Positions 2,562 through 45,505 of a DNA stretch of 53,318 bases are shown here, one piece after another. Each line of letters opens with the position of its first letter. Positions within the stretch are counted from its first letter, which is position 1. The stretch is from assembly GCA_017517925.1 (NCBI GenBank), contig JAFWXS010000053.1:1-53318 (forward strand), in the 5' to 3' direction. The position numbers and the translations under genes are program-made. The stretch comes from Bacteroidaceae bacterium. GTDB lineage: Bacteria; Bacteroidota; Bacteroidia; Bacteroidales; Bacteroidaceae. The notes beneath the pieces are model-generated. The model saw nothing but the letters and a program-made list of their open reading frames with translations, did not search any database and had not been told where the DNA came from.

Positions 2562-5377
2562 TTCCATAGGAATTTCACTTTTATGGGTGAATATTCATCT
2601 ACAATCTCAACTACGTAGGTACCGGCAGGCAGTGCGGAGAGAGAAACCAAGCAATCAGCACCAGCAAGTTCCTCGGCCAATACGAGACGTCCGGCAGCAT
2701 CGGTAATCATAGCCACCTTGCCTGCGGCATTCACGATATGCAGTCCAACGGTTTCGACTGTCACTTGTATACTTCCCTCAAACTGTGCCATGCCGGTAGT
2801 CGCTCCTACAAACAGTCTGCTCGAACCGACATTGCATGAGAGCATGTTCATCGATGCATCCACAAGGACAACATTCTCCGGCTCTATGGTATACACACCC
2901 TCGGGCATGTTTATAGGAAGCGTAGCTTTCACTGCGAGTTTTCCAGGCACAGCGCCCAGCGACATGGAGTAGGCAAGCAGCGTATAGGTGTTGTCCTCAG
3001 CATCCGCCTTACGGCCTACGACCAGACCCTTCGTTTCAGAGGTCAGCTCTACGCCTTCGGGCATGGTGACATCAAACTGCACTCCGCTCACGGCCTTTGC
3101 CGCCGAGAGGTCAAAGCGCATCATCACCTCCGAGGTGTTCACCGCATGAGCATCCACACCGGTAAGCGCATTCACAGCACTGATGCGCTGCTGCACACGC
3201 CTCTGCGCTGCTCTGGCTTTAGCTGTAGCCCGATCGCCCAGGATGATACCGCTGACACCCACAACGTCGACTACATTCACTTGCTCGTCGCCATTGATGT
3301 CGGCAGTAGCCAGGGTGTAGGTGGGGAACATACGGCCGTAGATGAGGTCGACCTCGCAGAGGACATCCATCACATCGATCGTCTCGTCCTTGTTCACGTC
3401 GCCCAGCAGCAATGACAATGCTCCGGGTGCGCGCAGCTGCAGTGTGGTCACCGCCTCATTGGTGCATCCGTTATTGTCGGCATACACGTAGCTGAGGCGG
3501 TAGTTGCCTGCTTCATTTCCACCGGGTTGGAACAACTGAGCCTCCACACCATCCACATAGTAGGTACCTCCCTCGGGCATGCCACCCTTGAGTACGACAT
3601 CCTCCTCGCTCGTGTAGAGTGGGAAGTAATGGGCTATAGACACCTCGGGCAACGGAGTCACGCGGATGGTAATCTGCGATGACAGGGCATTGTCGACCGC
3701 CGCACAGGGATTCGATGAGATGACGCGCACCTGCACCTTGTCGTTATCATAGAGGTCGCTTATCATCAGCGTATCCACCGTGGTGATGGCCACCACCTCA
3801 TCATTGACAATCCACTCATACTCGGGATGGTCACCGGCATCTGTGGCCGTAGCCTGTAGGCGTATGGCACTGCCCTCACACATCGTCTTGCTCGATGCGG
3901 CGAGAGTCACCTTCGGCTCGTCGGTAGGCAACACCACGATAGGCACATAGCACGTCGTAGCACAGTCGCCCACGGTCTTCACGCTGAGCGATGCCAGGTA
4001 GGTGCCTGCCTTCGCGTAACTGTATACGAAGGCCTCGCCGGCTTGTGAGTCCTCCGTGCCATCGCCGTCCATATCCCAGCTGTAGGTGGTCGCGTCGGTG
4101 GCTCCTGCGGTCTTGTTGTATACGACAAACTGCTCGCCTACGCATACGGTATCGTTGGAGAATTCGATCTGCGGATCGGCATTCATGCAGAGTTCATACA
4201 TGTAGGTCGCACTCCACATGCCATTGGATGCCAGTGCACGTACATACAGTATATGTGTGCCATAATCTGTGGGAGCATCAATCTCTGCAGCATCCACAAC
4301 CGATGGCGACTGCCCGGTGAAGGGTAGCTCGAAGCCCATGCCATAGCCCGGGTCTTCGTCCCAGTAGCCCTCGATGCGCTCGATGGTGACTACCTCATCA
4401 TCTGCCACCACTACATAGTACCACATGGTGCCCGACCATTGGTCACCCGTAGCAAAACGCATACCCAAGAGATGAAGGCCCTCGCCCAGCGCGTCGGTAG
4501 GCAGCTCCATGCAGGCCATAGCTCCGCCATCGGCCTCTACTATAGCCTGCTGGGTAGCATTGCCCATGCCGGGGTCGGTGTCCCAGAAGTACTCCATCTT
4601 AGTAATATGGCTTATCGACGGGTCGGCCTTCACCAAGGTATACCACATGGTGGGCGAGTAGTACTCTTCACCGCTCCCGGGCTCTTCGCTCATGGCACGT
4701 ACTCCCAAGAGGTGGACACCATAGTCCAACTCCTCGGTAGAGAGCATAAAGGTAGCCTCACCTCCGGCTGCATCCACCATGGTGCCGTTGCCCGCGCCGG
4801 GGTCGGTGTTCAGGAAGTACTCCACCTTGGTAAGCCGGCTTGTCGTCGGGTCGGCCTTCACCAGCGTATACCACATGGTGGGCGAATAGTACTCTTCACC
4901 GCTTCCGTCCTCTTCGCTCATGGCACGTATTCCTAAGAGGTGTATGCCATAGCCCAACTCCTCGGTAGAGAGCATAAAGGTAGCCTCACCTCCGGCTGCA
5001 TCCACCAGGGTGCCGTTGCCCGCACCGGGGTCGGTGTTCCAGAAGTATTCCACTTTTGTGAGCCGGCTTATCGTCGGGTCGGCTTTTACCAGCGTGTACC
5101 ACATGGTAGGCGAATAGATATCTCTATCCTCCTCGTTGTGTTCACTAATGGCCCGTATTCCCAGCATGTGGACACCATAGCCCAGCGCCTCGGTGGAGAG
5201 CGTAAAGGTCGCCTCGCCACCTGCAGCTGCTACCATGGAGCCGTTACCCATGCCGGGGTCGGTGTTCCAGAAGTATTCAAACTTGTCCTGTGCCCGCGTT
5301 GCGACACAGAGCATGAGGGTCAAACACATCATCCACCACCGGGCACTATGCTTCGGGGTTGGATGTGTGTTATTCAT
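2558..5377 (-). CDS. T9SS-secreted multidomain surface protein with dockerin-like and cohesin-like regions
   Basis: This 939-aa protein has a signal peptide (residues 1-30, ending VATRAQ). Next come four tandem 76-residue units starting EYFWNTDPG (residues about 34, 110, 186, 262), then a weaker fifth unit. A PKD domain follows (about 405-490, YSWDMDGDGTEDS), then two Ig-like segments. At about 655-715 are two calcium-loop repeats of dockerin type (GDVNKDETIDVMDVL and ADINGDEQVNVVDVV). A cohesin-like segment (about 745-855) precedes a C-terminal T9SS type-A sorting domain (about 865-939, GLHIVNAAGKVAMI, LPAGTYVVEI). It overlaps the upstream beta-helix gene by 8 bp and the downstream giant gene by 4 bp, so the three are translationally coupled. 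Domain names are read by eye; the ligand is unknown. Confidence 0.88.
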   Translation of the reverse strand: MNNTHPTPKHSARWWMMCLTLMLCVATRAQDKFEYFWNTDPGMGNGSMVAAAGGEATFTLSTEALGYGVHMLGIRAISEHNEEDRDIYSPTMWYTLVKADPTISRLTKVEYFWNTDPGAGNGTLVDAAGGEATFMLSTEELGYGIHLLGIRAMSEEDGSGEEYYSPTMWYTLVKADPTTSRLTKVEYFLNTDPGAGNGTMVDAAGGEATFMLSTEELDYGVHLLGVRAMSEEPGSGEEYYSPTMWYTLVKADPSISHITKMEYFWDTDPGMGNATQQAIVEADGGAMACMELPTDALGEGLHLLGMRFATGDQWSGTMWYYVVVADDEVVTIERIEGYWDEDPGYGMGFELPFTGQSPSVVDAAEIDAPTDYGTHILYVRALASNGMWSATYMYELCMNADPQIEFSNDTVCVGEQFVVYNKTAGATDATTYSWDMDGDGTEDSQAGEAFVYSYAKAGTYLASLSVKTVGDCATTCYVPIVVLPTDEPKVTLAASSKTMCEGSAIRLQATATDAGDHPEYEWIVNDEVVAITTVDTLMISDLYDNDKVQVRVISSNPCAAVDNALSSQITIRVTPLPEVSIAHYFPLYTSEEDVVLKGGMPEGGTYYVDGVEAQLFQPGGNEAGNYRLSYVYADNNGCTNEAVTTLQLRAPGALSLLLGDVNKDETIDVMDVLCEVDLIYGRMFPTYTLATADINGDEQVNVVDVVGVSGIILGDRATAKARAAQRRVQQRISAVNALTGVDAHAVNTSEVMMRFDLSAAKAVSGVQFDVTMPEGVELTSETKGLVVGRKADAEDNTYTLLAYSMSLGAVPGKLAVKATLPINMPEGVYTIEPENVVLVDASMNMLSCNVGSSRLFVGATTGMAQFEGSIQVTVETVGLHIVNAAGKVAMITDAAGRLVLAEELAGADCLVSLSALPAGTYVVEIVDEYSPIKVKFLWK
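4567..5270 (-). repeat. 228-bp tandem coding repeats (76-aa EYFWNTDPG units)
   Basis: Near-identical DNA blocks recur every 228 bp within the 939-aa surface protein. For example the stretch TACCACATGG starts at 4641, 4869 and 5097. Each block encodes one 76-residue EYFxNTDPGxGN unit. The low divergence suggests recent duplication and a chance of copy-number change by recombination. Confidence 0.85.
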
Positions 5378-12122: not shown

Positions 12123-12282
12123 AAAAACAGCGACGAGCAATGAGCGATGAGCTGCTATCTGGAGGGCAGGCTCACTTCTCAAAACTCAAGGCTCAAAGCA
12201 AAAAAAAATAACTCTAAACACTAAAACCCAAAACTCTAAACACTAAACTCTAAACACTAAACACTAAACTCTAAACCTACGG
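12123..12282 (-). repeat. Tandem-word intergenic repeat (family S) between ruvX and def
   Basis: On the minus strand, runs of the words TTTAGAGTTTAGTG and then TTGAGCCTTGAG precede a centre with CCTGCCCTCCAGATAGCAG, then CTCATCGCTCATTGCTC. The same plan of tandem words around a short core recurs between other genes in this window. It overlaps the last few codons of ruvX (stop at 12264). Confidence 0.6.
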
Positions 12283-14364: not shown

Positions 14365-14367
14365 TGA

Positions 14368-14632
14368 GAGTGGAAAGATGAAAGTGGAAAGATGAAAGTT
14401 CGAGCAAGCGAGCGAGATGCAAGTGTACTTGCAGTCTCTCAGCGAGCGCAGCCGAAGTTCTGCGAAAGTTCGAGCAAGCGAGCGAGATGCAAGTGTACTT
14501 GCAATCTCTCAGCGAGCGCAGCCGAAGTTCAATGAAGTCAAAGTGGAAAATGAAAAGATGAAAGATGAAAGTCACCATCCGGATGGCAACAACTTTCATC
14601 TTTCATCTTTCAACTTTCCACTAAATATTAGA
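14368..14632. repeat. Composite hairpin: family S arms with two tandem family P units
   Basis: The S element has arms built from GATGAAAG words and their complement TTTCATCTTTCATC, flanking the core CACCATCCGGATGG (about 14572-14586). On the other side lie two copies of a 70-bp unit (from 14401 and from 14471), each with the 16-bp palindrome TGCAAGTGTACTTGCA and arms starting CGAGCAAGCG and ending GCGCAGCCGAAGTTC. Further GAAAG words close the block at 14370-14399. It lies between pfp and the GH25 gene. Confidence 0.75.
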
Positions 14633-16274
14633 GGTCACCCAGCTCGTAACGGAGGGTCATAGTGGGCTGGTCGCACACCTCGCGGGGACCATAGTACTGG
14701 ATGGGGCCGGGGAATACATACTCGGTCTCCATCGCCCACTGGTCACGCTTGGCAGCAAATGCCTGGAAGGGCGCACCATCGAGCTTCACGAGAGCCTTCT
14801 TGATAACGGGCTTCATCTGACCGTGACGACGCTCCATGTTCATCATCATGGTGATGGGGATACCACCGGTCATCCACTCCTCGGCAGGACGTGTGGTCTG
14901 ACGGATTGAAGGCATGTAACCGGTCTTGCCATCGGCGATGAGCAATGATGCGGCATAACCGAGTGAATAGCAGTAGTCGGCATCGTAGTTAGAGGGAGCA
15001 GCGCAACGGCCTTCGTAACCGAAGAAGTGGTGCTGAGCGGCAAACTTACCGTTGTACTTGCCCTCGGCCTTCCACTCGTCGAGTTTGTTGCCTACCATCT
15101 CAGAGAGCAACTTCTCGGTCTCGATGAGCGATACCTGTACGTTGCCGTGGGGGTCGCGGTCGAGCGAGAGCTGACGTGCTACGCCTTCGGGCAGACTTGC
15201 GTATACCTTGGCATTGGCCTCAGAGAGGTGGTCGATGATGTACTGACGCTGCTCGTCCTCAGCCACAGCGGCAAACTCGGCTGCGTTGTGAGCGAGGAAG
15301 TCGTTGAGCTCGCTGATGAGCGACTTGATCTCGGGGATGAACTCGATGAGACCCTCGGGGATGAGCACGGTACCGAAGTTGTTGCCGTTAGCGGCACGCT
15401 TAGCCACTACCTCAGCGATGTAGGTCACTACGTCGTCGAGTGACTGGTTCTTAGCCTCTACCTCCTCAGAGATGATACAGATGTTGGGCTGTACCTGAAG
15501 AGCTACCTCAAGAGCGATGTGTGAAGCTGAGCGACCCATCAACTTGATGAAGTGGTAGTACTTACGAGCCGAGTCGCAGTCGCGCTCGATGTTACCTACG
15601 ACCTCAGCATATACCTTACATGCGGTGTCGAAACCGAATGAAGTCTCGATCATCTCATTCTTCAAGTCACCGTCAATGGTCTTGGGACAACCGATAACCT
15701 GTACGCCAGCGTTGATTGATGCGTAGTACTCAGCGAGTACGCAAGCGTTGGTGTTAGAGTCGTCGCCACCGATGATTACGAGGGCGCTGATGCCGAGTTG
15801 CTTGAGGATCTCAAGACCCTTGTCATACTGCTCCTTAGTCTCGAGCTTGGTACGGCCCGAACCGATCATGTCGAAACCACCGGTGTTGCGGTACTCGTCG
15901 ATAACGTCAGCGGTGAGCTCACGATAGTTGTGCTTTACGAGACCGTCGGGACCCATGAGGAAACCGAAGAGGCGGCTCTCAGCGTTGAGCATCTTGAGAC
16001 CGTCGAAGAGACCAGAGATCACGTTGTGACCACCAGGAGCCTGACCACCAGAGAGGATTACACCCACGTTGATGGGCTTGCTCTCCATCTTCTCGGCGGG
16101 AACGAACTTCAACATCGGGGTACCATAGGTGTTGGGGAACAACTCCTTGATAGCCTCCTGGTCAGCAACAGACTGTGTGGGAGCACCCTCCTCGATTCTT
16201 ACAGCACCTCTCAATACTTGGGGCAACTTGGGCTGATACGATGATCTAGCCATCTGCAATGCGCTTTTCTTCAT
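14628..16274 (-). CDS. pfp: Pyrophosphate-dependent phosphofructokinase
   Basis: 548 aa, typical of the long (plant beta-subunit-like) PPi-PFK. It phosphorylates fructose 6-phosphate with pyrophosphate, reversibly, in glycolysis and gluconeogenesis. Motifs: GGQAPGGHN (76-84), GGDDSNTNA (169-177), where the second Asp marks PPi rather than ATP use, and [10 protein letters not shown] (197-206). It has 254 bp of upstream non-coding DNA with no clean TAnnTTTG box; TTACTTTG at about 16346-16352 (minus strand) is a possible variant. Downstream lie the repeats and the GH25 gene. Confidence 0.95.
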
Positions 16275-16854: not shown

Positions 16855-18270
16855 TTACTCCTGTGCGAACTTCACCTGCTGTGCCGCCACCAGTCGGTCG
16901 TAGCGTCCTCCGAAGGGGCGGTGGTAGATGTAGACCTGATACTCGTTTTCGGCTTCGTAGAAATTGCCCTCGGCAGGCCCCGTCTGCCCCACTCCACTGC
17001 CATCGGGCACCCAGAGGTACATGAAGTCGTAGGCACCCTGCTTGAGCAGCACGGTGGCCTCGTAGGCTTGCGAGTCTTCATTGTAGGTTGCTTGATAGGC
17101 TGGAGTAAAGTCATTGTAGGTAAACTCTCCCGTCAGGTAGAAGTTGCCCCCCGTGCGGCGTGGCATGTCGAGCGTGAAGTGCACGAAAAGGTAATCGGCC
17201 TCGATGTCGGCATCCTCGGCCAGGTTGTAGCGGATGAGGTAACGGCCGTCGTGGTCGACATCGAAACTATAGTTGCGGCGCGGAGCATCGGGAAGGAGCG
17301 TGGCGTGATAGTAGGGTGCAAAATACTCCACTTTGTCTACCCCCTGCGTGGCGTAGTGCATATTGATGACCTCGAAACGGCGATACTCGTTGCCGGCAGG
17401 AAAGATGAGTGCACGATTATGGGTATATTCCGAGTGCCCGGGACTTACGTAGGTAGGCTTCACGAGTGCTACGGCATTGTCGGTGCGGTTGTTCTGATAC
17501 ACGTAGGACTTTATCTCCGTCGCGGGGTCCATCACCTCGCTGGGGGGATAGTTAAGGGTGAACTCCACCTGCTGGTGGCTCAAGTTGGTGTCAATGTCGG
17601 TATTGCTCGTCACCGCCACATTGAGCCCCATGCGCGGCTCTACGATGCGGAAGCAGGCAACGGCAACCAAGGGTTGGGTTGCTCTTGGCTCTTGGCTCTT
17701 GGCTCTTGGCTCTTGGCCATTAACCTTTAACCCTTTACCTTTAACCTGCAGCTCTGCTGCATCCTCTTCGTCATCGTTATCTCTGGAACCAACAGCCAAT
17801 GGCCAATGCCCAACAGCCTGCAGCTCCGCTGCATCTTCTTCTTCCAAATAAATCTCCACCCTATAGTTGCCCGAGGCCTTGAACTGGATGTTGTCGTTGG
17901 GAAGGTCGAGGCGGTAGTGGGTATAGAGCATCGTCGTGTTGAGCGAGTTCTCGTAGTCCTCGATGGGCTGGTCGTTGAAGCCATCCATATAGTCCACCTC
18001 GAAGAGGTCCGAGGGGGTCCAGTCGGCATTGCAATGGACGATCCTGTAGGTGAAGCGGTGGTAGTCGTGGGTGAAGTGGTCGAACGAGATGGTCACCCAG
18101 TCATCGGTCCCTAAGGTGATGACATCATCGTGCAGCCAGTCGTCATTGACTATCGTCTGCAGGGTATGTATCATCGGGTGATACACCTTGTTCGACTGGG
18201 CATACCCTACCCTTGTTGCGCCGAATAACAGGAACAATATACCTATATATATGTATAATAGTCGTTTCAC
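16855..18270 (-). CDS. DUF5103 protein, T9SS plug-like, with an in-frame repeat insertion
   Basis: 471 aa with a signal peptide (ending RVGYAQ). The conserved parts (YHPMIHTLQTIVNDDWLHDD; FTYRIVHCNADWTPSDLFEVDYMDGF; FPAGNEYRRFEVINMHYA) match the DUF5103 family, related to the Plug protein of the T9SS translocon. It is probably periplasmic, on the inner face of the outer membrane. Residues about 144-195 are foreign to the family: two copies of EEDAAELQ, each followed by low-complexity sequence (GHWPLAVGS; VKGKGLKVNGQEPRAKSQEP). At DNA level these are tandem words like those of the intergenic repeats, inserted without breaking the frame. It follows the lipoprotein and nitroreductase genes, probably in one operon. 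Confidence 0.85.
   Translation of the reverse strand: MKRLLYIYIGILFLLFGATRVGYAQSNKVYHPMIHTLQTIVNDDWLHDDVITLGTDDWVTISFDHFTHDYHRFTYRIVHCNADWTPSDLFEVDYMDGFNDQPIEDYENSLNTTMLYTHYRLDLPNDNIQFKASGNYRVEIYLEEEDAAELQAVGHWPLAVGSRDNDDEEDAAELQVKGKGLKVNGQEPRAKSQEPRATQPLVAVACFRIVEPRMGLNVAVTSNTDIDTNLSHQQVEFTLNYPPSEVMDPATEIKSYVYQNNRTDNAVALVKPTYVSPGHSEYTHNRALIFPAGNEYRRFEVINMHYATQGVDKVEYFAPYYHATLLPDAPRRNYSFDVDHDGRYLIRYNLAEDADIEADYLFVHFTLDMPRRTGGNFYLTGEFTYNDFTPAYQATYNEDSQAYEATVLLKQGAYDFMYLWVPDGSGVGQTGPAEGNFYEAENEYQVYIYHRPFGGRYDRLVAAQQVKFAQE
17683..17845 (-). repeat. Family S tandem-word repeat inside the DUF5103 coding sequence
   Basis: On the minus strand, words such as CCAAGAG repeated five times, GGTTAAAGGTAAAGG and GGCATTGGCCATTGG are inserted in frame. 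Both blocks are preceded by a copy of a 24-bp stretch containing GATGCAGCnGAGCTGCAG, so that stretch is duplicated. TAACGATGACGA between them matches words found between other genes. Confidence 0.75.
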
Positions 18271-21543: not shown

Positions 21544-22458
21544 ATGACTAAAAGCTTCGTAACCATTGCCGATCTGAGCAAAGAGAAAATCATGAGCCTG
21601 CTCGAAGCAGCGGCCCGATTTGAAGCCAACCCCAACCGCAAGACACTGGATGGAAAGGTTATTGCCACCCTATTTTTCGAACCCTCAACACGTACCCGAC
21701 TAAGTTTCGAGACAGCTGTAAACCGCCTTGGTGGCCGCGTCATCGGATTCAGTGATGCCGCCACATCGAGCTCGTCGAAGGGTGAAAGCCTCAAGGATAC
21801 CATCATGATGGTGAGCAACTATGCCGACCTCATCGTGATGCGCCACCACCTCGAAGGTGCCGCACGCTATGCCAGCGAGGTATCGCCTGTGCCCATCATC
21901 AATGCCGGTGACGGTGCCAACCAGCACCCCTCGCAGACGATGCTCGACCTATATTCCATATATAAGACACAGGGCACATTAGAGAACCTCAACATCTATC
22001 TCGTGGGTGACCTCAAATATGGCCGTACGGTACATTCACTCTTGATGGCCATGCGCCACTTCAACCCGCAGTTCCATTTCATCGCGCCCAAGGAACTCGC
22101 CATGCCCAACGAATACAAACTCTACTGCAAGGAGCATGGCATCAAGTATGTGGAGCACACAGACTTCACCGAGGAGACCATTGCCGATGCCGACATCCTC
22201 TATATGACCCGTGTGCAGCGCGAGCGCTTCACTGACCTCATGGAATATGAGCGTGTGAAGGACGTGTACATCCTCAAGGCCGACATGCTCAAGGGTACGC
22301 GCGACAACCTGCGCATCCTCCATCCGCTGCCCCGCGTGAACGAGATTGCCTACGATGTAGACGAAAGTCCCAAGGCATACTACTTCCAGCAAGCCAAGAA
22401 CGGACTCTACATACGCGAAGCACTCATCTGCGACTGCCTTAATATAATTGAAAGTTGA
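21544..22458 (+). CDS. pyrB: Aspartate carbamoyltransferase, catalytic subunit
   Basis: 304 aa. It joins carbamoyl phosphate and aspartate in pyrimidine synthesis. The carbamoyl-phosphate site [15 protein letters not shown] (about residues 46-60) is complete. [12 protein letters not shown], and [10 protein letters not shown] near the C-terminus, are also typical. The regulatory subunit gene pyrI follows 70 bp later, separated by an S-type hairpin repeat. Confidence 0.97.
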
Positions 22459-22515
22459 AAGTTGAAAAATGAGAGTTAGCCTTCCGGCTGGATGTTTTCG
22501 TTTTCGTCATCGTTA
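22446..22515 (+). repeat. Family S hairpin repeat between pyrB and pyrI
   Basis: GAAAGTTGAAAGTTGAAAAA words overlap the last codons of pyrB, then comes the core GCCTTCCGGCTGGATG, then GTTTTCGTTTTCGTCATCG. The structure follows the family plan, though the flanking words are less complementary here. Confidence 0.6.
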
Positions 22516-22990: not shown

Positions 22991-23130
22991 AACAACGAAC
23001 GATAGACAACAGACAACTGGCTACAGCCACCATCCGGAAGCAGACCGTTGTCTGTTGTCCGTTGACAAATAAAAAAACAAAAGCCACCACCCGGAGGCAG
23101 ACCATTGTCTGTTGTCCGTTGTCTATAAAC
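22991..23130 (+). repeat. Family S double hairpin repeat between pyrI and the flavin reductase gene
   Basis: GATAGACAACAGACAACTGG is followed by the core CCACCATCCGGAAGCAGACC, complementary words GTTGTCTGTTGTCCGTTG, then a second core CCACCACCCGGAGGCAGACC and another word run. The two cores differ at only a few positions. Confidence 0.75.
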
Positions 23131-29334: not shown

Positions 29335-29411
29335 GAGGTTAACGATAACGTTGACGATAACTTCCATCCGGAGGACAACTTTAAATTTTCAATTTTCAAC
29401 TTTCAATTTAA
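29335..29411 (+). repeat. Family S hairpin repeat upstream of the second nitroreductase gene
   Basis: TTAACGATAACGTTGACG words, then the core CTTCCATCCGGAGGACAAC, then TTTTCAATTTTCAACTTTC words ending 2 bp before the next ATG. Confidence 0.7.
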
Positions 29412-32866: not shown

Positions 32867-33573
32867 TGGAGATAACCCCCATCGCCCATTTTCGTAGCGC
32901 CTTCCCTACCAAGTTCGGCATACCGCGTCAGAGCGGTATCGTAAACGAACTGCGAGGGAGTATCGTCTTCGAGCCTGCCTACCGCAATGCCGATGCCTTG
33001 CGTGGACTCGAGGGTTTCGACTACGTGTGGATTGTATGGGAGTTCTCGGCCAACAAGAGCGTCGAAGAGCGCGGAATCGCCACGTGGCAGCCCACCGTGC
33101 GGCCGCCCTTGCTCGGTGGCAACACACAGATGGGTGTCTTCGCCACCCGCTCTCCCTACCGCCCCAACCCTCTGGGACTGTCATCGGTAAAGATTGAGCG
33201 TATAGAACCGGGCGGTAAGGAGGGACCCACCATCCACGTACTCGGTGCCGACCTCATGGACGGCACGCCCATCTACGACATCAAGCCCTACGTGACCTAT
33301 GCCGACAGCCACCCCGAGGCACGCAGCGGATTTGTAGACGGACGCCGTTGGCAGGAACTGCAAGTCGAGTTCCCCGAACATCTACAGGAATACTTCACCC
33401 CCAAGAGCCTTGCAGCCCTCACCCGAGTGCTCGCCCTCGACCCGCGTCCTCAGTATCAGGACAATCCTGAGAAGATATACGGTATGCCCTACGAGGGGTA
33501 CGACATTCGCTTTCGTGTGGCCGACGGAGTGCTCACGGTAGTGAGTGTTGAACGTTTAACGATTAAGGATTAA
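32866..33573 (+). CDS. trmO: tRNA (N6-threonylcarbamoyladenosine37-N6)-methyltransferase
   Basis: 235 aa, TsaA/TrmO family. It adds a methyl group to t6A37 in some tRNAs, using SAM. Signatures: PIAHFRSAFPTKFGIPRQSG, LEGFDYVWIVWEFSAN, and TRSPYRPNPLGLSSVKIERI, then DLMDGTPIYDIKPYV. The C-terminal extension (LTRVLALDPRPQYQ; YGMPYEGYDIRFRV) is the usual second subdomain. Confidence 0.94.
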   Translation: MEITPIAHFRSAFPTKFGIPRQSGIVNELRGSIVFEPAYRNADALRGLEGFDYVWIVWEFSANKSVEERGIATWQPTVRPPLLGGNTQMGVFATRSPYRPNPLGLSSVKIERIEPGGKEGPTIHVLGADLMDGTPIYDIKPYVTYADSHPEARSGFVDGRRWQELQVEFPEHLQEYFTPKSLAALTRVLALDPRPQYQDNPEKIYGMPYEGYDIRFRVADGVLTVVSVERLTIKD

Positions 33574-33612
33574 TGAGAACTACCATTCGGAGACAACTTT
33601 TATTTTTCTACT
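33560..33612 (+). repeat. Short family S repeat before ispE
   Basis: TTTAACGATTAAGGATTAAT overlaps the trmO stop, followed by the core ACTACCATTCGGAGACAAC and a T-rich end. It is the most reduced copy of the family. Confidence 0.5.
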
Positions 33613-33622
33613 TCAAAAAGTT

Positions 33623-34594: not shown

Positions 34595-34770
34595 TATCTT
34601 TGAGGTAAACCGCGAAGATACTTCCACTCTCAGTGATAAATATTCAAGCAAGCTTGATATTTCTCGTTCGTTTATTAGTATCTTTGAGGTAACCTTCGAA
34701 GATACTTGCACTCGCTGGGAAAAATACTGAAGTGAACTTCGTATTTTTCGCTCGTTTATTCGTATCTTTG
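34595..34770 (+). promoter_or_regulatory. Tandem 84-bp promoter units upstream of a glycosyltransferase gene
   Basis: TATCTTTG occurs at 34595-34602, 34679-34686 and 34763-34770, exactly 84 bp apart. Two full units and a partial third lie head to tail. Each full unit also has TATCTT facing an AAGATA 20 bp later, and an inverted repeat in the middle (AAGCAAGCTTGATATTT; GAAGTGAACTTCGTATTTTT). The third box is 19 bp before the ATG at 34790. No TTTG is seen at -33; TTCGCTCGTTTATTCG precedes the last box. The remainder of 34451-34594 shows no gene. Confidence 0.7.
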
Positions 34771-41381: not shown

Positions 41382-42722
41382 ATGACCACACTCATACACC
41401 AAGCCACTATCGTAAACGAAGGCGAACAATACATCGGTAGCGTACTCATAGAAGATCAACGCATAGCGGCCATCATCCGCGACACCGACATCACCGGCCT
41501 CACCGCCGACCATATCATCAATGCCGAGGGGCAATACCTCATCCCCGGCTGCATCGACGACCACGTGCACTTCCGCGACCCGGGACTGACACAGAAGGCC
41601 GACATGCACACCGAAAGCCGTGCCGCAGCACGTGGCGGAGTGACCTCCGTGATGGACATGCCCAACTGCAACCCACAAACTACGACGATAGAGACTTTGG
41701 AAGCCAAGTTTGCCGATGCCAAGAAGAAGTGCTTGGTGAATCACTCTTTCTACCTCGGCGCTACCACAAGCAACATTGAGGAGATACGTTGCGTAAACCC
41801 TCAGACGGTATGTGGCGTGAAGCTCTTCATGGGCAGTAGCACAGGCGGCATGCTCGTCGATGTGGATGAGCGCATCGAACAGATTTTCCGCGAGTCGCCC
41901 ACCCTCATCGCCCTGCACTGTGAGGACCAGAACATCATCTCGGCCAACACCGCCAAATATAAGGAAGAGACCGCAAGTGATGATCCCGACGTATCGTACC
42001 ACCCCCTCATCCGCAGCACCGAGGCCTGCTACCGCTCTACCGCCAAGGCCGTGGAGCTGGCACGCAAGACAGGCGCCAAGATACACATCATGCACATCAG
42101 CACAGCCCGCGAACTGGAGCTGCTACAGCAAGGCAACCTCAGCGACAAGCATATCACTGCCGAGGTATGCTTGCCTCACCTCTACTACACCGATGCCGAC
42201 TATGCCACCTATGGCACTCGCATCAAGTGCAACCCAGCCGTGAAGACGGCCGACGACCGCAATGCACTGCGTGAGGCATTGCGCACAGGTCTCGTCGATG
42301 TTATCGGTACCGACCATGCACCTCACCTCCCTACCGACAAGGTAGGAGGTTCACTGAAAGCCGCATCGGGCATACCCACCATACAGTACGTATTGCCCGC
42401 CATGCTCGAACTGGCCGACGAGGGCATCATCACCCTCCCCGAGGTAGTCGAGAAGATGGCCCACAACCCTGCTATATTATATAAAGTAAAGGAGCGCGGC
42501 TTCATCCGCGAAGGCTACCACGCCGACCTCGTGCTCGTGCGTCCCGATGCGCCCCACACCGTCACCACCGGGGAGATAGAAAGCAAGTGCGCTTGGAGTC
42601 CCTTCGAGGGCCATACCTTCCGTTGGGACATCACCCATACCTGGGTCAACGGCCACGCCGTATATGCCGACGGAGCGTTCGATGAGAGCAAGAAAGGCCA
42701 GCGTCTTGAGTTCTGCCGATGA
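41382..42722 (+). CDS. pyrC: Dihydroorotase
   Basis: 446 aa, class I dihydroorotase. It closes carbamoyl aspartate to dihydroorotate. The zinc motif is DDHVHFRDPG (about residues 59-68); GVKLFMGSSTGGM, HIMHISTARELE and DVIGTDHAPHLPTDK carry the other metal-site residues. The start at 41382 (MTTLIHQATIVNEG) is preferred; the longer frame runs through a repeat. The stop is in the 4-bp overlap with the MetH-activation gene, so the two are coupled. pyrB and pyrI lie 20 kb away in the same window. Confidence 0.94.
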   Translation: MTTLIHQATIVNEGEQYIGSVLIEDQRIAAIIRDTDITGLTADHIINAEGQYLIPGCIDDHVHFRDPGLTQKADMHTESRAAARGGVTSVMDMPNCNPQTTTIETLEAKFADAKKKCLVNHSFYLGATTSNIEEIRCVNPQTVCGVKLFMGSSTGGMLVDVDERIEQIFRESPTLIALHCEDQNIISANTAKYKEETASDDPDVSYHPLIRSTEACYRSTAKAVELARKTGAKIHIMHISTARELELLQQGNLSDKHITAEVCLPHLYYTDADYATYGTRIKCNPAVKTADDRNALREALRTGLVDVIGTDHAPHLPTDKVGGSLKAASGIPTIQYVLPAMLELADEGIITLPEVVEKMAHNPAILYKVKERGFIREGYHADLVLVRPDAPHTVTTGEIESKCAWSPFEGHTFRWDITHTWVNGHAVYADGAFDESKKGQRLEFCR

Positions 42723-43624
42723 GACGAGCACTCACCTACACCGTCCGCGAAGTAGCCCCCTACATCAACTGGCTGTACTATTTCCACACCTGGGGTATGG
42801 AGCCGCGCTTTGCCTCCGTAGCCGACGTACACAATTGTCCTTCGTGCCGCGCCACATGGATAGCCGCCTTTCCTTCCGAGGAGCAAGCCAAGGCCCGCGA
42901 GGCCATGAAGCTCTACGACGAAGCCATGGAGTTGCTGCGCCAATGGGCCGACGAGCCTATCTGTCATGCCCTGTTCCTCCTTTCCGAAGCCTATAGCGAG
43001 GGCGACGACATCGTCATCGACGGCACTATACGCATCCCCTTCCTACGCCAGCAGCATGCCGGCAAGAAGGGCTACACCCTTTGCTTGAGCGACTTCATAA
43101 GAGAAACGTCACCCCTACCCGAACAAAACGATAGAGACATCACCAATACCATAGGCATATTTGCCACCACGGTGTCGCATCCGTCCAACTTTCATCTTTC
43201 ATCTTTCAATTTTCAACTTTCAATTTTAACAGACCGCCTTGCCGAGGCTACTGCCGAGAAACTGCACGAGGAGGTGCGCAAGCACTATTGGGGCTACGCC
43301 CCCGACGAGCGGTTCACCATGCGTGAACTGCACGAAGAGCGTTTCCAGGGCATACGTCCCGCCATAGGCTACCCCAGCCTGCCCGACCAGTCGATAAACT
43401 TTCTGATTGATCAATTGCTACATCTCAGCGACATAGGTGTCACCCTCTCCGAGAACGGAGCCATGCACCCACACAGCACGGTCTCGGGCTTCATGTTTGC
43501 CCACCCCAAGGCACAATATTTTTCAGTAGGTAACATTAGCGAGGAGCAACTCACCGACTACGCCAAGCGACGAGGCATCGACATCCTTCAAACTAAAAAA
43601 TTTCTAACAGCCATCATTACTTAG
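42719..43624 (+). CDS. Stand-alone MetH reactivation-domain protein, with an in-frame repeat insertion
   Basis: 301 aa. The C-terminal two thirds match the AdoMet-dependent activation domain of B12-dependent methionine synthase: EEVRKHYWGYAPDERFTM, RFQGIRPAIGYPSLPDQS, LSENGAMHPHSTVSGFMFAH and YFSVGNISEEQLTDYAKRRG. In MetH this domain re-methylates oxidised cobalamin. Residues about 156-170 (SNFHLSSFNFQLSI) interrupt the domain before LTDRLAEATAE and are encoded by the S-type tandem words. The gene overlaps pyrC by 4 bp. It would work with a MetH lacking this domain; that gene is not in the window. Confidence 0.82.
   Translation: MRRALTYTVREVAPYINWLYYFHTWGMEPRFASVADVHNCPSCRATWIAAFPSEEQAKAREAMKLYDEAMELLRQWADEPICHALFLLSEAYSEGDDIVIDGTIRIPFLRQQHAGKKGYTLCLSDFIRETSPLPEQNDRDITNTIGIFATTVSHPSNFHLSSFNFQLSILTDRLAEATAEKLHEEVRKHYWGYAPDERFTMRELHEERFQGIRPAIGYPSLPDQSINFLIDQLLHLSDIGVTLSENGAMHPHSTVSGFMFAHPKAQYFSVGNISEEQLTDYAKRRGIDILQTKKFLTAIIT
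43183..43233 (+). repeat. Family S tandem words inside the MetH-activation gene
   Basis: GCATCCGTCCAACTTTCATC, then TTTCATCTTTCAATTTTCAA and further CTTTCAATTTT words. It reads in frame as a polar insertion. The same words stand between other genes, for example at 29376-29411. Confidence 0.8.
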
Positions 43625-45317: not shown

Positions 45318-45444
45318 TGACAAAGTTGCGATTGAGTGCCGACGCGGAGTATTAGCGTCGGTTGCGACGACTGAGCCTTTAGGCTCGTAAAGGAGTACTG
45401 CTTGCAGGCTCTGCCGAGCGTAGCAACTTCAACGAAGTTAACGG
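45318..45444 (+). repeat. Family P palindromic repeat between hydA and hydE
   Basis: Arms AAAGTTGCGATTGAG and GAGCGTAGCAACTTC, with inner hairpins CCGACGC/GCGTCGG and a second GAGCCTTTAGGCTC palindrome. It ends with AACGAAGTTAACG as in the copy at 41284. Confidence 0.75.
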
Positions 45445-45505
45445 ACAATGGACGATAGGCTTTCATCCGAACGGTGACTTTAATCTGTTGTCCGTTGTCC
45501 ATAGA
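45441..45505 (+). repeat. Family S hairpin repeat upstream of hydE
   Basis: GGACAATGGACGATAGG, the core TTTCATCCGAACGGTGAC, then TGTTGTCCGTTGTCC words, partly complementary to the left side. Confidence 0.7.

Follow-up and report, generated by a model that had tools for sequence, protein, structure and literature searches.

Differing tandem words around a shared palindromic core in genomes of the Bacteroidaceae

At several places in a stretch of DNA from an uncultured gut member of the Bacteroidaceae, short words are repeated in tandem on either side of a similar centre, and the words differ from place to place. This raises the question of what kind of process could keep the plan of a repeat while exchanging its sequence. 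The window analysed here is a whole contig of 53,318 bp, from a MAG-like genome (G000) of 2.36 Mb in 156 contigs that is 76.6% complete. Its nearest named relatives are seven contigs with pyrB 95-97% identical, from uncultured Bacteroidaceae or Bacteroidales MAGs, six of the seven from ruminant gut.

Elements of the window and their anatomy

TRF finds many period-7 arrays in the window, with differing words. The copy at 14542-14622 is an inverted repeat of heptamer words, with 31-nt arms that are 90% complementary and centred on ACCATCCGGATG, bearing out the inverted plan that the sequence-only reading had described at 14540-14632. The features are as follows.

14542..14572: left arm, words GTGGAAA / GATGAAA; inverted repeat I1, 90% complementary; TRF period 7
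14575..14586: palindromic core CCATCCGGATGG, exact match
14592..14622: right arm, words CTTTCAT / CTTTCAA / CTTTCCA; inverted repeat, TRF
14365..14399: additional heptamer array without a core of its own, GTGGAAA GATGAAA about twice; TRF
12129..12276: degenerate copy; AGCGATG words, core-like CTATCTGGAGGG at about 12155-12166, CTCAAAA words, then a CTAAACA array; TRF; weak RNA fold, z -2.1
22448..22514: copy at the pyrB-pyrI junction; TTGAAAG words, core CCTTCCGGCTGG at 22480-22491, right arm of TTTTCG 6-mers, arms unmatched; TRF; RNA fold z -1.1
23005..23064: copy 3' of pyrI; GACAACA words, core at 23030-23041, CCGTTGT words; inverted repeat I8; RNA fold z -5.3
23086..23125: second half-copy after pyrI; core ACCACCCGGAGG and GTTGTCC words; TRF; RNA fold z -1.6
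29338..29409: copy with unmatched arms; left AACGAT 6-mers, core at 29364-29375, right CAATTTT words; TRF; RNA fold z -1.5
33547..33622: degenerate copy at the 3' end of the trmO frame; AACGATT words, core-like CCATTCGGAGAC; TRF; RNA fold z +1.2
45440..45500: copy with degenerate core; GGACAAT words, CATCCGAACGGT at 45464-45475, GTTGTCC words; RNA fold z -5.3
43189..43227, + strand: coreless heptamer array, in frame in the ORF at 42719-43624
17681..17747, - strand: coreless GCTCTTG and TTAACCT arrays, in frame in the ORF at 16855-18270; TRF

Judged by eye, the cores near 12155, 33583 and 45464 are degenerate, with about two to three mismatches. Between the heptamer array at 14365-14399 and those of the 14542-14622 copy lies a 70-bp direct repeat (14394-14530; two copies, 98% identical), each copy of which appears palindromic by eye (GAACTTCGGCTGCGCTCGCTG...), with similar stretches, also by eye, in locus L002. 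Longer tandem repeats were found by TRF at 37-1420 (183 bp), 4560-5275 (228 bp) and 34595-34770 (84 bp).

Across loci of the same genus, many of them fetched for the core, 86 unique core sites were compiled: arrays stand on both sides of 37 of them, on a single side of 22 and on neither side of 27. The consensus from 59 core sites is TTG-CCATCCGGATGG-CAA, in which the centre was fixed by selection at no more than two mismatches, and only the TTG and CAA flanks (0.48-0.67) are free of that rule. The elements have a strict polarity, with words left of the core and words of reverse-complement type right of it. The 28 elements with 7-mer arrays on both sides supply 56 arms. In 47 of these the words are purine-rich (left words, and right words read on the other strand), and a single word class, AGGAGTT, occurs in both senses (3 versus 1). 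The two arms of an element resemble each other more than arms paired anew do (word identity averages 4.79 versus 4.10 of 7 letters, a value reached by one of 5000 re-pairings), although 12 of the 28 arm pairs share no more than four of seven letters. By eye, another module, resembling ACATCGCGAAGCC or its complement, also recurs in some copies, where it separates the core from an arm (L188, L069, L333, L365, L379).

When folded as RNA, three of the eight window copies (14538, 22996 and 45430) reach z -5 or below and the other five lie between -2.1 and +1.2, while one of three copies outside the window folds well and the other two do not go beyond z -2.1. Hence the hairpin is common but not needed. 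The sequence-only reading, of hairpins of one plan standing between genes, is therefore partly confirmed: the tandem-word pattern around a core is real, and 'hairpin' is half right. Its single plan can be seen at every place that it listed, although some copies are degenerate and their arms are often non-complementary, and intergenic copies do exist, although further copies lie in frame inside conserved proteins. The CTTGGCT-type array (17681-17717) has no core and lies inside a coding frame. With so many copies failing to fold, the case for a role in capping transcripts is weakened.

Enrichment, vocabulary and spread

The palindromic core, about TTGCCATCCGGATGGCAA, stands between tandem arrays of 6-, 7- or 9-nt words, and its enrichment depends on the length that is counted. 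Genome-wide in G000, the bare 10-mer ACCATCCGGA is not enriched by count (8 occurrences versus 7), a figure that says little by itself; six of the eight lie between word arrays. The 17-nt core ACCATCCGGANGGCAAC, with up to three mismatches, has 55 strand-wise matches in G000 versus 15 for the reversed control, the 55 corresponding to 49 places because a palindromic core is partly counted on both strands. Equivalent counts on both strands are 86 versus 27 in G002 and 118 versus 23 in G014, and enrichment is about 1.6- to 5-fold in 12 close genomes and about 1.5- to 2.6-fold in seven more distant genomes of the same genus. Within the window, the 12-mer core with up to two mismatches has 27 matches, compared to a shuffle mean of 13.96, and one of 100 shuffles reached 27. 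Rfam gives no match at gathering score in the window. The genome-wide enrichment expected from the sequence-only reading thus holds for the longer core and not for the bare 10-mer, and its view that no known family explains the words agrees with the Rfam result; since the longer core is enriched and no Rfam family matches at gathering score, that reading is not overturned on either point. A reversed control of the CTTTCAN pattern was set aside, because this word is nearly identical when read backwards and the control is not independent.

Period 7 exceeds the other periods among intergenic arrays, as expected of heptanucleotide simple sequence repeats. A 483-kb sample of G000, of which 19.7 kb is N and which includes the window and six contigs chosen for holding the core, has 23 arrays of period 7, 15 of the harmonic period 14, and 0-8 for each other period from 4 to 13 and for 15. 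An 850-kb sample of G002 has 55 of period 7 and 0-9 for other periods from 4 to 15, except the harmonic 14. Since the choice of several stretches had rested on matches to the core or to words, the main counts were repeated on unselected stretches: 25 other readable pieces of G000 (309 kb) have 12 arrays of period 7, eight of the harmonic 14 and 0-7 of others (seven of period 9), and the G002 stretches not picked for core or words have 30 of period 7 and 0-4 of others apart from 14.

The link between core and arrays was assessed by asking how often a core with no more than one mismatch neighbours a 6-, 7- or 9-nt array, with three 12-mers as controls. This was so for 9 of 28 cores in G000 and 20 of 35 in G002 (controls 0/13 and 0/38), and in unselected stretches for 1 of 10 and 8 of 15 (controls 0/10 and 0/22), making the link clear in G002 and weak in G000. 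The array background, recomputed by length for intergenic sequence, is 19/528 and 25/642; the overall G000 value of 0.0472 is inflated by N runs. The probabilities assigned to the explanations below were unchanged by the unselected recount, because the in-place swaps and the longer-core enrichment are independent of the picked stretches.

The words themselves form a recurring vocabulary. The 44 arrays of G000 fall into 29 word classes and the 101 of G002 into 32, with 14 classes in common (null mean 1.9, maximum 6), and the proportion of classes with a neighbour at Hamming distance 1 is 0.90 in G000 and 1.00 in G002 (null means 0.57 and 0.61, maxima 0.79 and 0.81). In unselected stretches, G002 has nine of the 17 G000 classes (null mean 1.0, maximum 5), and its own 60 arrays there represent 27 classes, compared with 55.7 expected from shuffled letters. 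Common descent may account for part of the vocabulary that G000 and G002 share; the recurrence of words within G002 is not between orthologs. With other genera, four of 18 classes overlap (null mean 1.3, maximum 5), so that no excess is demonstrated there. Half-elements also recur: the right half GGANGGCAAC-TCCTAAC is present at four G002 loci (L349, L351, L361, L362) with differing left sides, and one G002 element matches an element with 9-nt words in its right half and not in its left. Words that return at many loci, and half-elements that return beside different partners, speak for the copying of arrays already present and against free synthesis.

Among 399 Bacteroidaceae genomes, the 18-mer core (up to three mismatches) reaches high counts in individual species of some genera, while most of their relatives stay close to background. 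Examples of counts against the control are 51 versus 0 and 49 versus 0 in genus g20, 39 versus 1 and 33 versus 1 in g22, and 39 versus 2 in G014. In two g20 genomes the core is present in seven of eight fetched loci, with words such as GCGTTA, GTGAAGC and AACGAA, and in the g22 genome G101 in three of four, with ATTTACT-type words on one side and a GC-rich inverted repeat on the other; the two remaining g20 and g22 loci are not centred on the match. One further genome with 42 core matches (G131) was set aside, as three of its four fetched loci hold another repeat (TTGCCATGCGGATGGCAA) and the fourth is off-centre.

Exchange of words at orthologous sites

Arrays are found in frame in IlvD, MetH (two sites), GlgA, NadD and the C-terminal end of AroA, among others, and the G000 and G002 samples hold 41 arrays inside ORFs of at least 150 aa and more than 15 codons from the ORF ends, the coding calls being mechanical ORFs. 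For IlvD, the alignment with the best PDB match stops before the insert and restarts after it. Because whole-window synteny in sister species is too poor for a comparison junction by junction, protein-anchored sites were used, aligning same-genus orthologs of four proteins chosen for an array in G000 or G007, each genome being a single MAG assembly. All four (IlvD, MetH, GlgA and MazG) have orthologs both with and without an in-frame palindromic element. Of the 12 close genomes, 11 have sequence at the IlvD site, with GATGAAA-type words in four, GACAACA with TTGTCAA in two, and TTGTCAA, GTCAACA, TCAGAAT, an unclear sequence and no array in one each, and seven distant genomes of the same genus have no array there. 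The MazG element is present in two of 10 close genomes with sequence at the site. In GlgA, heptamer words are present in seven of 10 such genomes; in two others the site holds a GC-rich inverted repeat that is unrelated, and in the last a short spacer. In the MetH and GlgA orthologs of G009, G010 and G012 (L254, L257, L295, L299), in-frame GC-rich inverted repeats, CCCCCTCCC...GGGGGAGG, occupy the codons that hold heptamer words in sister species.

The words at one site can differ between genomes whose flanks are nearly the same. In IlvD, G002 differs from G006 and G014 over nearly the whole element, within flanks of about 210 nt that are 96-98% identical, and the letters adjoining the element's edges are the same in G002 and G006. 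The right-arm words of GlgA are CTCTCAA in G000, G005 and G007, TTGTCAA in G002, G006 and G018, and TTTTCAA in G014, having changed in phase in most or all copies, with single-word variants; the flanks of G006 and G014 are 97/98% identical. At the second MetH site the words of G006 and G014 differ within flanks 92/95% identical. Gain is seen in a second GlgA copy of G006, which replaces about 20-30 nt of native codons present in G002, G014 and G018, with no target duplication seen in flanks that are 93-98% identical. Altogether, in 19 array-by-pair comparisons of G002, G006, G014 and G018, some sites being counted in several pairs, seven arrays were unchanged or nearly so (for instance 32/32, 26/26 and 24/24 letters) and 12 were changed or missing. 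By eye, the spacer between pyrI and flavoredoxin also has some inverted structure with differing words in the 12 close genomes, except G004, which has only 9 nt.

Sister species carrying different words at identical spots suggest that the repeats are rewritten in place, by copying and slippage. The claim that the architecture is conserved and not the sequence holds well, with different words and the same plan at the IlvD, GlgA and MetH codons and at the pyrI junction, and comparison of sister species shows a gained copy, missing arrays and changed words, the flanks of swapped pairs being 92-98% identical. Of the templated or slippage-based process then suggested, a slippage-like one is supported by the in-phase GlgA changes; the recurring words and half-elements point to copying of existing arrays rather than to a templated machine that writes new ones. 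As a whole, that interpretation is partly supported.

Origin of the elements

We regard these elements as modular palindromic repeats, with arms replaced by copying between loci, homogenised by slippage and under weak selection, an account to which we give about an even chance of being right. The family is best read as working like REP, RPE and MITE elements combined with heptanucleotide repeats. Its unit would be a half-element in which tandem words of 6, 7 or 9 nt run up to one half of the core, and two such units would meet head to head at the palindrome. If an array suffered a break or a stalled fork, repair could copy a similar array from elsewhere and so bring in new words, either through ectopic gene conversion or through template switching at the palindrome; template switching at quasi-palindromes is a known process. 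Whole-word slippage would then homogenise the array, and fold-back copying across the core might sometimes match one arm to the other. Copies would persist as nearly neutral sequence in spacers, or in frame in permissive protein linkers, rather than as needed RNA hairpins. It counts against this copying model that the donor array was not caught for any individual swap, that seven of the 19 compared arrays stayed the same or nearly so, that one of ten core-like sites in unselected G000 stretches adjoins an array, and that the 9-nt-word form seems to be moved by a transposase. A similar core in other genera also suggests a protein that recognises it, something the copying model does not require.

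Alternatively, the elements could be miniature elements of MITE or REPIN type, in which the core is the recognition site of a transposase, IS200-like or of another kind, that inserts whole elements, and the words are decayed cargo. We consider this unlikely, although at least one carrier of the core probably transposes. This is the form with 9-nt words (L366 ~15873-16105; L363 ~3627-3857; L230 centre), which has the same core, spans roughly 230 bp between 19-bp inverted ends, CAGGGAAAACGCATTATAA (by eye), is 97% identical (227/233) at two G002 loci, and is flanked by a 10-bp duplication, ACAAACCATT, at one of them (L366). Inverted ends and target duplication suggest that a transposase moves at least this form; a related copy in G000 is ambiguous, since the GTGGGGGTAG that borders it on each side belongs to a longer direct repeat. 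A separate 143-bp element of G002, with 10-nt words TTTAACTCCA and another core, TTCGCGCGAA (L367 18637-18781, compared with L302 and L300), has an 8-bp duplication, TTATTATT, and clean empty sites in G006 and G018. A transposase would also be consistent with the patchy occurrence of the core across the family, and candidates exist. Y1_Tnp matches occur in seven of 19 genomes of the genus, a G004 protein scores above the NCBIfam cut-off for REP-associated tyrosine transposase (121.2 bits versus 80), and a longer Y1-like protein falls under it in G002 (43.7 bits) and G000 (31.2 bits), with relatives in G012 and G014. The G000 protein (L378 412-1911) carries a long low-complexity Asn/Thr/Ala insertion that is absent from the G002 and G014 orthologs.

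Four observations argue against transposition of the heptamer elements. Firstly, the heptamer gain in GlgA came with loss of native codons and no duplication. Secondly, of 19 G002 core sites only the 9-nt-word form is near-identical over its full length, whereas heptamer elements match partly or at 74-86%. Thirdly, of eight fetched Y1 loci seven lack a core element, and in the remaining one, from G012, the element and the gene are about 1.1 kb apart and separated by an ORF; the flanks fetched for the G004 gene above the cut-off (about 1.5 kb or less) have none, and the loci of G004, G006 and G014 have short coreless arrays. Fourthly, an in-phase change of all words of an arm would not be a signature of transposition.

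A dedicated process anchored on the core, writing or swapping the flanking word arrays, could also give in-place rewriting in several Bacteroidaceae genera at a few percent divergence, and seems clearly unlikely.

Less probable still are selected RNA hairpins between the genes of operons, acting as stabilisers, processing sites or terminator-like structures, in which only pairing matters and words drift. The placement of arrays would suit them, being in 45 of 404 co-directional, seven of 102 convergent and four of 116 divergent spacers (24/263, 2/66 and 3/80 in unselected stretches), as would the strong folding of some copies (z -5 to -10) and the inverted structure kept with different words between pyrI and flavoredoxin. 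However, most window copies and two of the three further copies fold poorly, many arm pairs are dissimilar, copies lie inside proteins, and G004 does with 9 nt at the pyrI-flavoredoxin spacer.

Pure local replication slippage, with each array arising from local sequence and 7 as the favoured step, would suit the in-phase word changes and the report that heptanucleotides are the commonest long simple repeats in most surveyed genomes, for which slippage was proposed (Mrazek et al. 2007, as cited in PMC4679880), yet is very improbable, because words and half-elements recur and the elements have one core and a strict polarity in common. Introgression of short orthologous tracts between sister species, bringing words along with homologous DNA, would suit mosaic genes (the IlvD left flank of G018 is 79-80% and the right 91-93% identical to G002, G006 and G014), but has little chance of being correct, as the flanks of swapped IlvD and GlgA pairs, about 210 nt to either side, agree at 93-98% and the IlvD edge letters of G002 and G006 are the same.

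The modular repeats favoured here share features with several known systems. REP and REPIN sequences, according to PMC3733652 and PMC3116915, are short imperfect palindromes of high copy number, mostly extragenic, scarce between divergent genes and often in head-to-head pairs, with some inside genes. The elements described here are likewise short palindromes, often paired head to head and sometimes intragenic. Their core is enriched and their arrays are biased to co-directional spacers, with convergent and divergent ones alike in unselected stretches. Unlike REPs, which bear a GTAG or CGTC tag at one end of a 20-40 bp palindrome, their consensus has no such tag (59 sites, centre fixed by the selection rule), their arms are tandem words that vary between copies, and none of the eight Y1 loci, with flanks of about 1.5 kb or less, has a transposase gene flanked by copies. 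Rickettsia palindromic elements, reviewed in PMC10969869, are about 150 bp, form ten families and lie in frame in unrelated metabolic proteins with a conserved encoded peptide; a palindromic element in frame in conserved proteins is common to both, whereas here species differ at one site in the arms and therefore in most of the encoded peptide. The same source's MITEs resemble the 9-nt-word form, with its inverted ends and clear duplication at one locus, and not the resolvable heptamer gain, which has neither. The TAACTGA heptamer arrays of Beggiatoaceae, Cyanobacteria and some Bacteroidetes (PMC4679880) and the 49 GGGACCG elements of Geobacter metallireducens, also within genes (PMC2700814), share period 7, a largely intergenic location and a patchy distribution; each of those families has one fixed word, whereas here dozens of words related by single steps share one core, polarity and plan. 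Within full-text literature, in which subscription papers mostly do not figure, the searches listed no paper whose title or abstract opening deals with Bacteroidaceae arrays that exchange words about a shared core. Mazel et al. reportedly treated cyanobacterial heptamers, and Elhai et al. small dispersed repeats.

Hence the plan of a repeat is kept while its sequence is exchanged in place, even in conserved enzymes, which neither plain transposition nor microsatellite slippage explains. Because the swaps can be dated against flanks that differ by a few percent, it becomes testable how the excess of 7-nt repeats noted in bacteria arose. Such exchange would supply these bacteria with a natural and fast source of new in-frame peptide linkers.
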